This document shows, one piece after another, positions 4,807-9,091 of a stretch of DNA of 9,091 bases (position 1 is the stretch's first letter; each line of letters opens with the position of its first letter). Both the position numbers and the translations under genes were made by a program. Location: positions 1 to 9,091 of the forward strand of contig CAKTKF010000029.1 in NCBI GenBank assembly GCA_934569215.1, in the 5' to 3' direction. This DNA comes from an uncultured Oscillospiraceae bacterium (GTDB lineage Bacteria; Bacillota; Clostridia; Oscillospirales; Oscillospiraceae). The notes beneath the pieces are model-generated. The model was not told the DNA's origin. It made no database searches and saw only the letters and a program-made list of their open reading frames with translations.

Positions 4807-6929
4807 AAATCTACAAAATGACGGCCACCTTCGGCAAGCTGGAACATGCGGAGCTGACCCTCCAGCCGGGTCTGAACATCCTCACCGCCCCCAACGAATG
4901 GGGCAAAAGCACCTGGTGCGCCTTTCTCGCGGCCATGCTCTACGGTCTGGACACCCGGGCAAAAACCACGAAAACCGCCCTCGCCGACAAGGAGCGCTAC
5001 GCCCCCTGGTCGGGCAACCCCATGGCCGGGCGCATTGACCTGAATTGGAACGGCCGGGACATCACCATCGAGCGCCGCACCAAGGGCAGAGTCCCCCTGG
5101 GTGAATTTAAGGCTTACGAAACCGATTCCGGACTGGCCGTCCCGGAGCTGACGGCGGCAAACTGCGGCCAGCAGCTGCTGGGCGTGGAGCAGACGGTGTT
5201 CCGCCGGGCGGGATTTATCCGTCAATCGGATTTGCCGGTGACCCAAGACGAAGCCCTCCGCCGCAGACTCAACGACCTCGTGACCACCGGCGACGAAAGC
5301 GGCGCGGGCGACCGGCTGGCAAAAAACCTCCGGGATCTGAAAAACCGCTGCCGCTACAACAAAAGCGGCCTCCTTCCCCAGCTGGAAGGCCAGCGGGATG
5401 CACTCCAGGACAAAATTGAGGAGCTGGACGCGCTGGACACCCAGGTGAAAAAGCTGAAAATGCGTCTGGACGACGTCAAAACCTGGCTTCAGCAGCTGAA
5501 CACCCATCAGGCCGCCCTGGACTATGCCGCCGCAGAGGCGGACGCCGGGCGGGTCGCCCAGGCGCGGGAAGCGCTGGAACAGGCGCAGGATTTGCTCGCC
5601 ATCCGGGAAGCCGCCTGCGAAAAGCTGCCCTCTCAGGAGGACGCGGAAAAGAAGCTCAAGGAGCTGCGCGGCTTCCGGGACGAGTGGAACGCCCTGCAAA
5701 TGGAAAATCAAATGCTCCCCCGCGCTCCCCTGCCCCCGGCTAAAAAGGACCCCTTCGCGGACATGGACGTAACAGCGGCCATGGAAATGGTCAACGCCGA
5801 CCGTCAGACCATGACCGGCCTGCGGGGCAGCAAAATGCCGATCCTGCTGCTGATCCTGGGCGCCATCGTCATGGCCGGAGCGATCGCGCTGCTGGTGATG
5901 GGAAATTACCTCCCGGCGGGCATTCTCGGCATGGTCTCCGTGCTTCTTCAGGCGCTCAGCCTCTTGGGAATGCAAAGGCTGAAAAAGCAGACCGAGGCAC
6001 TGGAAAAGAAATACGGCACCGCCGACCCCGCCCACTGGACGGACTCCCTGCGGGAATATGAGACCGCCCTGCGGGTGTACAACGCCGCCCAGAAGGAATA
6101 TCAGGACGCCCAGGGAGACGTGGAGGTACGCCTGATGGTTCTGCGCAAGCGCCGGGATTCCCTGTGCGGCGCCCAGGAGCCGGACGCAGTCATGGAATTC
6201 TGGCAGCAGATCACGAACAAATGGGAAGCCTACCACACCGCCCGGCGGGAAGCCCAGCGGGCGCAGAATCTGGTGGACACCCTCAGCGCCATGGCGAAGC
6301 CAGTTCGGCCCCCCGTGGGGGTGGATACCCTGACCCACTCCCCGGCGGACACGGCGCGGCTGCTGTCGGACTGCACCGAGGAGCAGCAGCGGCTGCAAAG
6401 CCGCATCAGCCAGTACAAGGGCCGGATGGAAGCCCTGGGCGACCGGGCGCTGCTGGAAACGCAGCTGTCCGCGGTCAACGCCCGTCTTGCCCAGCTGGAA
6501 AAGACCTACACCGCCCTGACCATCGCCCAGGAGACGCTGGCGCAGGCGCGGTCGGAATTGCAGCGGCGGTTCGCCCCCCGGATTTCCCAGCGGGCGCAAA
6601 GCTATCTTGCCGCCATGACCGGCGGGCGCTACCAGCGTCTTTCCATGGGCGAGGACTTTTCCCTCCAGGCCGGAGCCGGGGACGAGGAAACCCTCCACGA
6701 CGCCCTGTGGCGCAGCGACGGCACCATCGATCAGCTGTACCTCGCCCTCCGTCTGGCCGTGGCGGAGGAGCTGACCCCGGAGTCCCCGCTGATTCTGGAC
6801 GACGCGCTGGTGCGCTTCGACGATACCCGGATGCAGGCGGCGCTGGCTATTCTGGAGGACATGGCAAAGAAGCGTCAGGTCATTCTGTTCACCTGCCAGC
6901 AGCGGGAAGGAAATGCTGCAAATTCCTAA
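4803..6929 (+). CDS. SMC/Rad50-like AAA ATPase with transmembrane hairpin (YhaN-like)
   Basis: A 708-residue split-head ATPase. Near the N-terminus is a Walker A, APNEWGKST (29-37), with Ala in place of the usual first Gly, then a Q-loop region, FIRQSDLPV. Near the C-terminus are an ABC-type signature SDGTIDQLYLALRLA (638-652) and Walker B LILDDALVRFDD with D666/D667. The position expected for a switch histidine reads TCQQRE, with Q699. Between the heads are Leu/Glu/Gln/Arg-rich coiled coils (roughly 180-320 and 395-600) interrupted by two hydrophobic helices (about 346-365 and 370-392), starting MPILLLILGAIVMAG. There is no CxxC zinc hook. This matches the YhaN family, not SbcC, though at 708 residues it is shorter than B. 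subtilis YhaN (about 963). Start is GTG 4803, whose bases overlap the upstream stop (GTGA). It probably forms a membrane-tethered complex with the upstream phosphoesterase; its activity on DNA or RNA ends is inferred. Confidence 0.85.
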   Translation: MKIYKMTATFGKLEHAELTLQPGLNILTAPNEWGKSTWCAFLAAMLYGLDTRAKTTKTALADKERYAPWSGNPMAGRIDLNWNGRDITIERRTKGRVPLGEFKAYETDSGLAVPELTAANCGQQLLGVEQTVFRRAGFIRQSDLPVTQDEALRRRLNDLVTTGDESGAGDRLAKNLRDLKNRCRYNKSGLLPQLEGQRDALQDKIEELDALDTQVKKLKMRLDDVKTWLQQLNTHQAALDYAAAEADAGRVAQAREALEQAQDLLAIREAACEKLPSQEDAEKKLKELRGFRDEWNALQMENQMLPRAPLPPAKKDPFADMDVTAAMEMVNADRQTMTGLRGSKMPILLLILGAIVMAGAIALLVMGNYLPAGILGMVSVLLQALSLLGMQRLKKQTEALEKKYGTADPAHWTDSLREYETALRVYNAAQKEYQDAQGDVEVRLMVLRKRRDSLCGAQEPDAVMEFWQQITNKWEAYHTARREAQRAQNLVDTLSAMAKPVRPPVGVDTLTHSPADTARLLSDCTEEQQRLQSRISQYKGRMEALGDRALLETQLSAVNARLAQLEKTYTALTIAQETLAQARSELQRRFAPRISQRAQSYLAAMTGGRYQRLSMGEDFSLQAGAGDEETLHDALWRSDGTIDQLYLALRLAVAEELTPESPLILDDALVRFDDTRMQAALAILEDMAKKRQVILFTCQQREGNAANS

Positions 6930-6940
6930 ATATCGTTCTG

Positions 6941-6976
6941 AACAGCGGAGAAAGCGTGGCTTTCTCCGCTGTTTTT
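6941..6976 (+). terminator. Strong intrinsic terminator of the ymdB-yhaO-yhaN-like operon
   Basis: AACAGCGGAGAAAGC (6941-6955) is perfectly complementary over 15 bp to GCTTTCTCCGCTGTT (6959-6973) around a GTG loop, and runs into a five-T tract (6972-6976). It starts 11 bp after the ATPase stop codon and isolates the operon from the BlaI/M56 unit. Confidence 0.92.
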
Positions 6977-6999
6977 GCACATTCTCCCGTTACGAAAGA

Positions 7000-7028
7000 T
7001 TTCCAGAATTTCTTAATTTTGTTATAAA
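7000..7028 (+). promoter_or_regulatory. Possible secondary promoter upstream of the blaI-like gene
   Basis: TTTCCA (7000-7005) and TATAAA (7023-7028) are spaced by 17 bp in an AT-rich stretch. Both boxes are imperfect, and the stronger promoter at 7044-7072 lies just downstream, so this is a weak alternative. Confidence 0.25.
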
Positions 7029-7043
7029 TTGTAATTTCCCGTC

Positions 7044-7072
7044 TTGACAGGGGAGGTTGAATGTGTTAGACT
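7044..7072 (+). promoter_or_regulatory. Extended -10 promoter of the blaI-like/M56 unit
   Basis: A consensus -35 TTGACA (7044-7049) lies 17 bp before TAGACT (7067-7072), which is preceded by TG at 7064-7065, forming an extended -10. Transcription should begin near 7079, giving a leader of about 50 nt. The -10 box is itself part of a TGTTAGACT word that recurs almost exactly as TGTTAAACT at 7092-7100, consistent with autorepression by the BlaI-type product. Confidence 0.75.
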
Positions 7073-7083
7073 GCCAACGTAAG

Positions 7084-7099
7084 GTTTAATTTGTTAAAC
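7084..7099. promoter_or_regulatory. Candidate operator for the BlaI-type repressor
   Basis: GTTTAA (7084-7089) and TTAAAC (7094-7099) form a perfect dyad with a 4-nt spacer, at about +6 to +21 of the predicted transcript. Including the -10 overlapping TGTTAGACT (7064-7072), three related half-sites line the start region. BlaI/MecI-family dimers bind dyads in their own promoter region, so autoregulation is likely. The exact recognition word is inferred only from position and symmetry. Confidence 0.5.
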
Positions 7100-7113
7100 T
7101 CCCCATCCTAAAC

Positions 7114-7120
7114 AAGGAGG
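7114..7120 (+). promoter_or_regulatory. Ribosome-binding site that fixes the TTG start
   Basis: AAGGAGG, a near-perfect Shine-Dalgarno, sits 8 nt before the TTG at 7129. No ATG or GTG lies at a suitable distance in this frame, so the site decides in favour of the rare start codon. Confidence 0.8.
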
Positions 7121-7128
7121 TATTTCAT

Positions 7129-7497
7129 TTGGAAGCACCCAAAATTTTTGAAAGCGAATACCGGTTCTGCCTGATTTTGTGGGCAAACGAGCCGATCAAC
7201 TCCACCCATCTCGTCGAGCTGTGCAAGGAGCAGATGGGCTGGTCGAAGGCAACCACCTACACCGTCATCCGCCGCCTGTCGGAGCGGGGCGTGGTGAAGA
7301 ACGAGAACGCCGTCGTCACTTCCCTGATTTCCAAGGAACAGGCGCAGGCGTCCCGGTTAAACGAAATGGTGGAAGAAACCTTCCAAGGCTCCATGCCCGC
7401 CTTCATCGCCGCTTTCTCCCGGAGCAAGAAGCTCACCCGGGACGAGGTAGAACAGCTGAAAGCGCTCATTGACAATTACGAGGAGGATCGAACATGA
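7129..7497 (+). CDS. BlaI/MecI/CopY-family transcriptional repressor
   Basis: A 122-residue winged-helix repressor of the BlaI/MecI/CopY type, the usual length for the family. Residues about 8-75 are the DNA-binding domain, including the recognition region MGWSKATTYTVIRRLSERGVV, here read as helix-turn-helix plus wing. The C-terminal ~45 residues form the dimerisation helices (LTRDEVEQLKALIDNYEED) and include the region in which BlaI proteins are cleaved by their partner protease. It starts at TTG, supported by AAGGAGG. Its stop overlaps the next start codon by 4 bp (ATGA), so repressor and M56 peptidase are translationally coupled, as in blaI-blaR1 systems. No beta-lactamase or PBP2a gene is visible, so the regulated targets are unknown and it should not be read as evidence of resistance. 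Confidence 0.9.
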   Translation: MEAPKIFESEYRFCLILWANEPINSTHLVELCKEQMGWSKATTYTVIRRLSERGVVKNENAVVTSLISKEQAQASRLNEMVEETFQGSMPAFIAAFSRSKKLTRDEVEQLKALIDNYEEDRT

Positions 7498-9091
7498 ACA
7501 CATTGTTCCAGAACATCCTGACGGCCAGCTTCCACGGCAGCATCGTCATTCTGGCCGTTATGCTGCTGCGGCTGGTACTGAAAAAGACGCCCCGAAAGTA
7601 CATCTGCCTGCTCTGGCTGCTGGCAGGACTGCGGCTGCTGATGCCCTTCCAGATCCAAAGCGACCTGAGCTTGCAGCCCAGCGCCGACCCGGTGGCGAAG
7701 GTGCAGCAGCAGATCAGCCGTTCCCAGACGCCCGCCGCGCCGGATGATTTCTCTCTGGACGGTCTGGAAGTCCCGGCACCGGTGCAGACGCCCGAGGCGC
7801 TTCCGGACGTCCAGGCTCCCGTCACCACCGTCATCAGCAGCACCCCCTCCCCCGCCCCGGAAACCGCGCCGGAACCGGATACGGGCTTTGATTTCCTGTC
7901 GGTTCTGCCCTGGTTCTGGCTTGGCATCGCCTGCTGCTTCGGCATTTACAGTCTGTACACCTACCTGACCCTGAAGCTGAAGGTTCGGGAGGCCGTCAGG
8001 ATCCCCGGCGGCTGGGAATGCGACCGCATCGAGACCGCTTTTATTCTGGGCTTCATCCGCCCGAATATCTACATCCCCATGGGCATGACCCCCGAGGAAC
8101 AGCGTTACATTCTCGCCCACGAACGCACCCATCTGGACAAGGGCGACCACTGGTTCAAGATGGTGGGCTTTCTGGCGCTGGCGCTGCACTGGTTCAATCC
8201 GCTGGTGTGGGCAGCCTACATCCTGCTGTGCAAGGACATCGAGATCGCCTGCGACGAGCGGGTGGTGCAGTTCATGGAGCTGGACGAGCGGAAAGCCTAC
8301 TCCGCCGCCCTGCTGAACTGCTCCACCAATCGAGCGCACTTCGCGGCCTGTCCCGTGGCCTTCGGCGAGGTGAGCGTCAAGGAGCGCATCAAGTCGGTGC
8401 TTTCCTATAAGAAGCCCAGCTTCTGGATCAGTCTGGTGGGCGTGATCGCCATCGTTTTCGTGGCGGTGTGCCTGGTGACCAGCCCCGCGAGAAAAGATGC
8501 GGCAGCCGCCGGGGATACCGAACCGACCTCTGCTTCCGACGCCGTCACCGTCCGCAATGTGGACGAGCTGCTGGCCGCCATCGCGCCGGACACCGTCATC
8601 CAGCTGGAGCCGGGAACCTACAATCTGTCCGGCGCCAAAGGCTACGGCCTGCCCTCGGAAAACCCCTACTACGGGTGGACGGAAAAGTACGACGGCTTTG
8701 AGCTGATGCTGCAAAACGTGAAGAACCTGACCATCCGCGGCAGCGGTAAGGTGAACACGACTCTGGAATGCGACCCCCGGTCTGCCAGCGTCATCAATCT
8801 GAAGAATTGCGAAAATGTCACGCTGGAGGATTTCACCGCCGGTCACACCCTGGAACTGGGCGAGTGCAGCAGCGGCGTTATTTACCTGCAAAACTGCACC
8901 GGCACCGACATGAACCGCCTGGGCATCTACGGCTGCGGCATGATCGGATTGCAGGCGGCGGATTCCAAGGACATTTCTCTCGCGGACAGCGACGTGTACG
9001 ACTGCTCCAGCAGCGCCGCCGAGATCATCAGCTGTGAAGACGTCTCCATCTCCGGAACCCGCATTTACCGCATCGGCTCCGAGGAATACGG
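7494..9091 (+). CDS. M56 (BlaR1-type) membrane metallopeptidase with beta-helix-like C-terminus, 3' partial
   Basis: The frame is open from ATG 7494 to the window end, 532 residues visible. Hydrophobic segments lie at about 11-28, 33-50, 135-158 and 310-330, with another hydrophobic, probably re-entrant stretch at 221-246 (GFLALALHWFNPLVW). The zinc peptidase motif HERTH is at 209-213, followed by the family's IEIACDE segment with E250; FILGFIRPNIYIP before it is also typical of M56. A Pro-rich loop (about 55-131) should face outside between segments two and three. After the last helix, about 200 visible residues are extracytoplasmic. From about 351 they read VRNVDELLAAIAPDTVIQLE, then PGTYNLS, the usual opening of right-handed beta-helix domains, and then short Asn/Ile/Cys-rich rungs. 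This replaces the penicillin-binding sensor of BlaR1. Expected role: sense an outside ligand and inactivate the coupled repressor. Gene end not seen. Confidence 0.88.
   Translation, partial: MNTLFQNILTASFHGSIVILAVMLLRLVLKKTPRKYICLLWLLAGLRLLMPFQIQSDLSLQPSADPVAKVQQQISRSQTPAAPDDFSLDGLEVPAPVQTPEALPDVQAPVTTVISSTPSPAPETAPEPDTGFDFLSVLPWFWLGIACCFGIYSLYTYLTLKLKVREAVRIPGGWECDRIETAFILGFIRPNIYIPMGMTPEEQRYILAHERTHLDKGDHWFKMVGFLALALHWFNPLVWAAYILLCKDIEIACDERVVQFMELDERKAYSAALLNCSTNRAHFAACPVAFGEVSVKERIKSVLSYKKPSFWISLVGVIAIVFVAVCLVTSPARKDAAAAGDTEPTSASDAVTVRNVDELLAAIAPDTVIQLEPGTYNLSGAKGYGLPSENPYYGWTEKYDGFELMLQNVKNLTIRGSGKVNTTLECDPRSASVINLKNCENVTLEDFTAGHTLELGECSSGVIYLQNCTGTDMNRLGIYGCGMIGLQAADSKDISLADSDVYDCSSSAAEIISCEDVSISGTRIYRIGSEEY

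Follow-up and report, generated by a model that had tools for sequence, protein, structure and literature searches.

The window analysed here is a stretch of 9,091 nucleotides from an uncultured Oscillospiraceae bacterium (contig CAKTKF010000029.1). Its 3' end carries the gene of a BlaR1-type receptor, in which an M56 protease is joined to a predicted beta-helix ectodomain. The receptor gene (7494..9091) lies on the + strand, as do all features of the window given below, and its open reading frame (ORF) runs from 7494 to 9089 with 532 codons and is still open at the window end. Directly upstream lies blaI (7129..7497), which encodes a BlaI/MecI-type repressor of 122 residues, has a TTG start and overlaps the receptor gene by 4 bases. 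The neighbours of this operon are chromosomal housekeeping-type genes.

Protease, ectodomain and repressor

The initial annotation described an M56 peptidase with HERTH at residues 209-213. This agrees with the Pfam search, where Peptidase_M56 (PF05569) matched residues 8-301 of the window ORF with 146.7 bits against a cut-off of 31. HERTH (8118..8132) is a zinc-binding HExxH motif and was aligned by phmmer with that of S. aureus BlaR1 (8exs) in a weak match (E 0.3). The second gluzincin motif, E250xxxD254 (8241..8255), is the counterpart of E242xxxD in BlaR1 (PMC9834060). Judged from the sequence, both zinc motifs are intact. The receptor does not reach the NCBIfam blaR1_generic cut-off (81 of 400 bits, best stretch residues 154-329).

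The membrane topology is predicted. A long loop between membrane helices 2 and 3 (residues 53-133, 7650..7892) was placed by the flanking hydrophobic stretches, is predicted to lie outside and has a low predicted local distance difference test (pLDDT) score in the model. It is the positional counterpart of the BlaR1 loop EL1 and may have a corresponding role. A PVAFGE loop (8352..8369) is near-invariant in the sister-receptor alignment, and by likeness to Ser283-Phe284 of BlaR1 its Ala289-Phe290 is a possible self-cleavage bond. The last membrane helix (residues 312-330, 8427..8483) coincides with the hydropathy maximum and is a helix in the model.

Behind this helix the receptor departs from its closest sisters, encoded at the loci L002 and L003. 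In the linker (residues 331-349, 8484..8540) identity to both falls from 80-100% to 20-25% per 20 residues, and the first beta-helix then starts at residue 350 and continues past residue 532 (8541..9091), as placed by profile, model and alignment. The incomplete window piece scored 20.7 bits with Beta_helix (PF13229), which is under the cut-off of 25.9. The complete orthologs P0232 (973 residues) and P0205 (976 residues) share 95% and 96% identity with the window piece over its full 532 residues and scored 69.2 and 75.0 bits. In both, the M56 domain is followed by two beta-helix modules in tandem (about 300 and 210 residues) and a C-terminal domain (about 110 residues), the boundaries having been cut on a further relative, P0010. 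AlphaFold2 modelled P0010 with two consecutive beta-solenoids (P0010 residues 301-830; window numbering +49), where mean pLDDT exceeds 85 in 43 of 53 ten-residue blocks. A right-handed beta-helix fold is therefore predicted for the ectodomain, in line with the earlier proposal of a beta-helix from about residue 350 (8541); the solenoid-free model that would have spoken against that proposal was not obtained. Whole-chain template modelling (TM) scores from Foldseek were low for the receptor model (0.11-0.22 by query) because one domain of four was matched, and a fold search was therefore run on model residues 296-646. By this comparison the modelled ectodomain has a polysaccharide-lyase fold of the alginate or pectate-lyase-like type.

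The visible part had been described as free of a transpeptidase-type sensor, and this extends to complete proteins: no transpeptidase or penicillin-binding profile was found at E <= 0.01 in P0010, L001, P0232, P0205 and P0154. A beta-lactam sensor is thus not hidden downstream of the window end, and this candidate was rejected on the complete orthologs.

The window gene is incomplete, which raises the question whether the fusion is an artefact of assembly or gene calling. One related entry, P0014 (857 residues), is a beta-helix receptor running into a Polysacc_synt_C (polysaccharide-biosynthesis) domain and is itself probably a chimeric assembly. Against an artefact stand full-length orthologs in many clusters and contigs, with 5732 sequences in the P0205 cluster and 75 contigs carrying P0232. 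Complete fusions were also found in the separate genomes G001, G304, G367, G099 and G189. We regard the artefact explanation as already refuted.

The partner is a BlaI repressor by sequence. Penicillinase_R (PF03965) matched it with 78.2 bits against a cut-off of 22.6, and it aligns to MecI (1sd6, E 6.1e-8) and to a penicillinase repressor (1sd4, E 0.00018). It has a Phe aligned with S. aureus Phe102 of the mapped cleavage site Asn101-Phe102 (site from PMC9834060).

Exchange of the ectodomain between relatives

A scan of genome contigs gave 45 loci. In eight of them (L001, L002, L003, L005, L008, L011, L012 and L014) sbcD-sbcC precedes blaI-M56 on one strand. Seven of the eight have ymdB before sbcD-sbcC (L002 begins within sbcD), L001, L003 and L011 additionally share obg and araC, and in L008, L012 and L014 further ORFs separate sbcC from blaI. 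Among these syntenic loci a beta-helix occurs only in L001; the C-termini of the other seven (658-696 residues) gave no BLAST match to it.

Between the window and L003, identities are 87.6% for AraC, 88.0% for YmdB, 78.1% for SbcD, 78.7% for SbcC, 86.1% for BlaI and 75.2% for the M56 domain. Along the receptor itself, identity to L003 is still 85% at residues 321-340 but 25% at 341-360, and it reaches 0-5% at 481-520. On this sequence comparison the sensor is exchanged in place between relatives at an orthologous locus. The other sensor was modelled on L002 (1023 residues, mean pLDDT 83.7) and consists of strands and helices with no solenoid. With the whole L002 model, the top Foldseek matches were BlaR1 structures from cryo-electron microscopy (8exp_A, E 2.9e-6, at low whole-chain TM), the protease part giving a TM by target of 0.50 against 8exr_A. 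The model also matched LolA (8cgm_A, E 1.3e-4, TM by target 0.49) and, further down, LppX, and a Big_14 Ig-like profile lies in mid-sensor (residues 629-697 of L002).

A tree was built from 72 M56 domains, after 13 of 85 full-length rows had been dropped (11 near-copies of the window protein, one duplicate gene and one cut protein). It is a quick tree with support by the Shimodaira-Hasegawa-like approximate likelihood ratio test (SH-aLRT) only, and L121, L059, L065, L038 and others form long branches. On this tree, 6 gains or losses of the label are required to place the 18 beta-helix receptors; starred branches force 4 of these changes, and a single clade for the receptors was rejected (approximately unbiased test, p-AU 1.6e-6). 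The window receptor and P0013 are sister (98, starred) to L002 and L003, which bear the other sensor. The same beta-helix also occurs in nine rows on a second M56 kind and in a third setting, L121, whose M56 domain is 34% identical to that of the window. Several events of sensor gain or loss are better supported than any exact count, and of the number itself we are unsure.

The sensor swap proposed in the initial annotation thus stands as far as replacement is concerned, on a protease with intact zinc motifs, with a BlaI partner, at an orthologous locus and scattered over the M56 tree. Its second part, a carbohydrate-type input, is suggested by the modelled fold and by an added domain. Relatives of the L001 M56 domain were sought among 7999 scored candidates 0.55-1.75 times as long, which gave 6080 matches; of the best 120, 83 bear the beta-helix and 37 the other sensor. 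Eighteen of the 83 have an added NAGPA phosphodiester glycosidase domain (PF09992; 106.6 bits in P0154) and are 1337-1364 residues long. Protease, sensor and glycosidase in one chain were seen at L120:6411-10424 and in 18 proteins between P0149 and P0224.

Further upstream, a Na+/H+ antiporter-type gene lies at 1550-2857 of the window, between araC and ymdB. At E <= 1e-6 over 50 residues, its protein matched nothing at that place in L001, L003 and L011, which span it, and nothing in the rest of the 45 loci. This pattern suggests either that the gene was inserted locally or that the others lost it.

Predicted operators and separate beta-helix genes

A consensus scan upstream of blaI found a promoter-like site with a -35 hexamer TTGACA (7044..7049) and a -10 hexamer TAGACT (7067..7072), matching the consensus at 10 of 12 positions with a spacer of 17. 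It is the only sigma-70-like site in 6900-7200, where shuffles average 0.4. Operator 1, the dyad GGTTGAATGTGTTAGACT (7055..7072), overlaps the spacer and the -10 hexamer in a position conserved in relatives. Operator 2, the dyad GGTTTAATTTGTTAAACT (7083..7100), follows at 28 bp start-to-start, a tandem spacing that recurs in relatives. By sequence, a tandem dyad thus covers the promoter, and BlaI would be expected to bind it. The operator pattern matched twice in the window and never in 200 shuffles, the pattern having been drawn from the same two sites. No Rfam element was found in the window at gathering scores, by which an RNA element was ruled out.

We hand-picked 27 regions upstream of blaI or of a beta-helix gene and dropped three with a distant BlaI in which the dyad is absent (L121, and L137 and L138 with a second BlaI kind). 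With a matrix trained on the same sites that it reports, the remaining 24 regions showed two sites 28 bp apart in 18, 29 bp apart in 2 and one site in 4. Classical BlaI operators carry the motif TACA-N-TGTA. This motif was not found upstream of the window blaI, for which classical operators were ruled out by the motif scan, and among the 27 regions it occurs only in L125 and L138.

Whole-genome scans covered 14 genomes, and all operator counts from them are among the matches listed, which span these genomes except G367 and G369, and G359 in part. At least 14 places have two sites 27-29 bp apart, and 12 of them precede genes of this system (blaI, beta-helix or M56). Of the off-operon tandem places, G001:C32:13249-13294 has no clear ORF behind it and lies antisense to an ArsR-like ORF and past a GH2 gene. 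The other, G359:C55:16787-16831, precedes a membrane-like ORF of 153 residues without a Pfam match (L165:5215-5676, - strand), which is a possible target in trans. Since the tandem places lie nearly all at this operon kind, the regulon predicted from sequence is essentially the operon itself. Single sites were uninformative: with at most 2 mismatches there were 35 matches versus 18 for a reversed-pattern control (both strands, 6 genomes), and with at most 3 mismatches 191 versus 334 (9 genomes).

Operator-like sites were also seen near the same GH2 gene in G304 and G001, two genomes with beta-helix receptors (L163:2701-2718 and L161:5250-5295), and in none of 8 other genomes holding that gene. 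We do not claim this glycosidase as a target, because G304 has one site, upstream of the gene, whereas in G001 the site lies past its 3' end.

Among 55 blaI-M56 pairs with at least 800 nucleotides of upstream sequence, 13 have a beta-helix gene on the same strand that ends at most 200 nucleotides upstream of blaI (L013, L122-L129, L131, L133, L134 and L136). The M56 protein of these loci bears the other sensor kind; L123 and L126 end before the sensor. The fusion is present in 5 pairs (L001, L120, L121, L137 and L138). A matrix site precedes the upstream beta-helix gene in all 13 loci (a single site in L127). Another lies before a stand-alone lipoprotein gene in L094, close to the end of that contig. 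Of 120 listed beta-helix proteins, 34 have an M56 match and 86 do not; 11 of the 86 (P0011, P0020-P0028 and P0042) are evidently truncated versions of the fusion, and a lenient pattern finds a lipobox-like motif within residues 11-45 in 66. Stand-alone beta-helix places number at least 30 among the matches listed, 8 of them adjoining an M56 match.

These separate proteins are what a second explanation of the ectodomain draws on. The beta-helix could be an anchored effector, a surface protein that binds or modifies glycans and whose synthesis or release is controlled by the M56 protease, with the signal being read elsewhere, such as in the helix 2-3 loop or in the membrane. Homologous beta-helices existing without M56, beta-helix genes standing first in 13 operons of this type and the glycosidase domain added in 18 of 83 receptors would all suit it. 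So would a lipobox-like LxGC at the end of the last membrane helix, present in 8 of the 9 receptors with the second M56 kind, as if the ectodomain could be cut and lipidated. We nevertheless consider an effector unlikely, because the ectodomain sits at the position of the BlaR1 sensor, where the sister proteins place another large domain, and because the window protein has no canonical lipobox at its last helix. The LxGC receptors are P0103, P0056, P0057, P0077, P0089, P0098, L059 and L137, with L138 lacking the motif. On sequence, they look like a lipoprotein fused with its signal peptide, and lipoprotein signal peptidase might free a lipid-anchored ectodomain.

A tandem beta-helix lipoprotein gene also lies beside mreB in L049, L050, L051 and L053 (genomes G015, G005, G013 and G009). 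The four mreB genes are 98-100% identical (Pfam MreB_Mbl for L049), with a small membrane-like ORF on the other side, and the operator scan gave no match at these four beta-helix genes. The position beside mreB points to a possible link to cell shape. It would also fit a relay that serves beta-lactams or wall damage after all, the beta-helix detecting a wall polymer released by beta-lactam action. The partner is of the BlaI family, and B. licheniformis BlaI can respond to a peptidoglycan fragment according to PMC3305447. We think such a relay improbable, as the complete relatives have no penicillin-binding domain and no beta-lactamase gene was recognised in the window or beside the L001 operon, where the neighbours were only partly scanned.

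The proposed relay and known systems

We lean, with modest confidence, towards a BlaR1-type M56 protease with a predicted beta-helix sensor that relays a signal, likely a glycan ligand, to BlaI and its own operon. An outside ligand would reach the beta-helix ectodomain, which in its bound state would switch on the cytoplasmic M56 protease. The activated protease would cleave the co-encoded BlaI, and loss of BlaI would derepress the operator-controlled operon, the main induced product presumably being the operon itself. The Phe at the aligned BlaI position and the conserved PVAFGE loop lead us to infer the same relay as in BlaR1 with another input. Three things make a glycan-like input probable: the predicted fold, the phosphodiester glycosidase added in some receptors, and the presence of the same operator before a lipoprotein gene of this family in relatives.

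Several observations weigh against this reading. The match to polysaccharide lyases was judged by fold, at 13-18% identity, and not by catalytic residues, and the search behind it was made mostly with the first helix (model residues 296-646). Beta-helices are also adhesins and structural proteins, and PfbA is among the matches. The fusion is rare per species genome: a single match spanning both parts was found in 3 of 136 genomes (G001, G304 and G367) and, in a separate scan, in 4 of 250 (G001, G099, G189 and G036). All nine rows of the second M56 kind were found via their beta-helix, and the sample therefore holds no member of this kind that lacks one. In the 5 fused pairs, blaI is not preceded by a further beta-helix gene that could serve as effector of the window's operon. 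The 20 pairs in L120-L139 were fetched after the matches had been seen and form a biased set, and in the 35 pairs from the unselected scan the upstream gene occurs only in L013 and the fusion only in L001. Moreover, 22 of the at least 30 stand-alone beta-helix places listed do not adjoin an M56 match, and four genomes have such a gene beside mreB.

A metal signal is also possible. The receptor could sense metal or redox state through conserved His and Cys residues of its beta-helix, as PetP is proposed to do for copper. H451, C458, C481 and C504 are near-invariant, their counterparts in P0010 (H402, C409, C432 and C455) being kept in 82/83, 82/82, 83/83 and 83/83 rows, and the set recurs in the second helix (79/79, 78/79, 80/80 and 80/80 rows). 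NosD (PF05048), described as 'copper-binding', is among the Pfam matches of the beta-helix and exceeds its cut-off of 23.6 bits in P0232 (31.1 bits) and P0205 (24.2 bits). The CopY copper-repressor model gave BlaI 51.4 against a cut-off of 121.95, which is far below. Cysteines one coil apart (23 residues) are, on the other hand, also ordinary internal stacks of beta-helices. No metal-transport gene was recognised beside the operon in the loci read, without a systematic scan of neighbours. A copper-responsive BlaI/BlaR1-type pair has been published (PMC7896320), and the NosD match and the conserved set keep a metal input alive, yet we give it little credence.

The glycan relay can be extended, more tentatively and with some doubt, to a self-contained surface-glycan system of exchangeable cassettes. 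Histidine kinases likewise swap their input domains. Relatives have a gene for a separate beta-helix lipoprotein in the operon, which means that sensor and product can come from one family, and the beta-helix might be both detector and regulated product. BlaI would silence little beyond its own operon. The ligand would free the operon and more beta-helix would be made, either fused or, in relatives, as a lipoprotein, sometimes with a domain that cuts sugar phosphodiesters. Gut Oscillospiraceae would swap the beta-helix for LolA/Ig-like sensors on one M56 platform at one locus.

The one task for which BlaR1 is known is the detection of beta-lactams. If M56 proteases are a general platform on which the outside domain is swapped at one chromosomal position, the labels 'BlaR1' and 'beta-lactamase repressor' in gut genomes need not mean resistance. 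It would then become testable whether such proteases form a counterpart of two-component systems, with inputs of the glycan type and perhaps of the lipid type. A sensor with a separate lipoprotein of the same family mirrors the BlaR1 sensor and class D beta-lactamases and suggests a route by which such receptors originate. Public sets name a few such proteins generically ('M56 family metallopeptidase', 'right-handed parallel beta-helix repeat-containing protein' and 'phosphodiester glycosidase family protein'). By titles, abstract starts and term counts, no paper coupling BlaR1/M56 with a beta-helix was evident among those listed. At that depth, the beta-helix receptor family, its exchange in place with a LolA/Ig-like sensor, the several fusions and the homologous lipoprotein behind the same operator appear to be new; a BlaI/BlaR1-type pair with a non-beta-lactam signal is already known (PetR/PetP).

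The window system resembles BlaR1/MecR1 with BlaI/MecI of S. aureus and B. licheniformis in its M56 gluzincin motifs (HExxH and ExxxD), the large domain after the last helix, the co-encoded BlaI-type repressor and the dyads at the promoter. For S. aureus BlaR1, PMC9834060 describes a sensor that is related to class D beta-lactamases and that signal peptidase releases at Gly331. In the mechanism proposed there, the drug pushes an outside loop away from this sensor, after which domains shift and BlaI is cleaved at Asn101-Phe102; the loop before helix alpha-9 is self-cleaved at Ser283-Phe284 (PMC9834060). The window receptor differs in having a tandem beta-helix instead of a penicillin-binding domain and a longer helix 2-3 loop (about 81 residues versus EL1 56-96). 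Its operators are dyads of the type GGTTTAATnnnTTAAACY, and no beta-lactamase gene was recognised among the partly scanned neighbours. We class it as an M56 member and functional look-alike of BlaR1, and not as a BlaR1 beta-lactam receptor, because the defining sensor was looked for and not found.

PetR/PetP of Synechocystis, a BlaI-like regulator with a BlaR1-like protease, forms a copper switch (PMC7896320). It is a precedent for a BlaI/BlaR1-type pair that answers to something other than a beta-lactam and controls very few proteins (four); its signal is copper and its targets are petE and petJ (PMC7896320). BlaI_0696 and BlaI_1845 of Clostridium thermocellum, studied by DNA affinity purification sequencing (DAP-seq), have small regulons that include their own operon, and their ordered site sets for four protomers compare with the tandem dyads of the window, although the motif is another one (PMC8457756). 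The beta-helix polysaccharide lyases and epimerases that were matched (alginate lyase 6kfn, AlgE4/AlgE6 and 8ja4) share 13-18% identity with the ectodomain, which here is joined to a signalling-type protease. Closest are the sister M56 receptors of L002 and L003, which occupy the same locus with M56 domains 75-77% and BlaI 84-86% identical to those of the window, but carry a sensor of about 690 residues, that of L002 having a Big_14 Ig-like match, LolA-like fold matches and a model without a solenoid.
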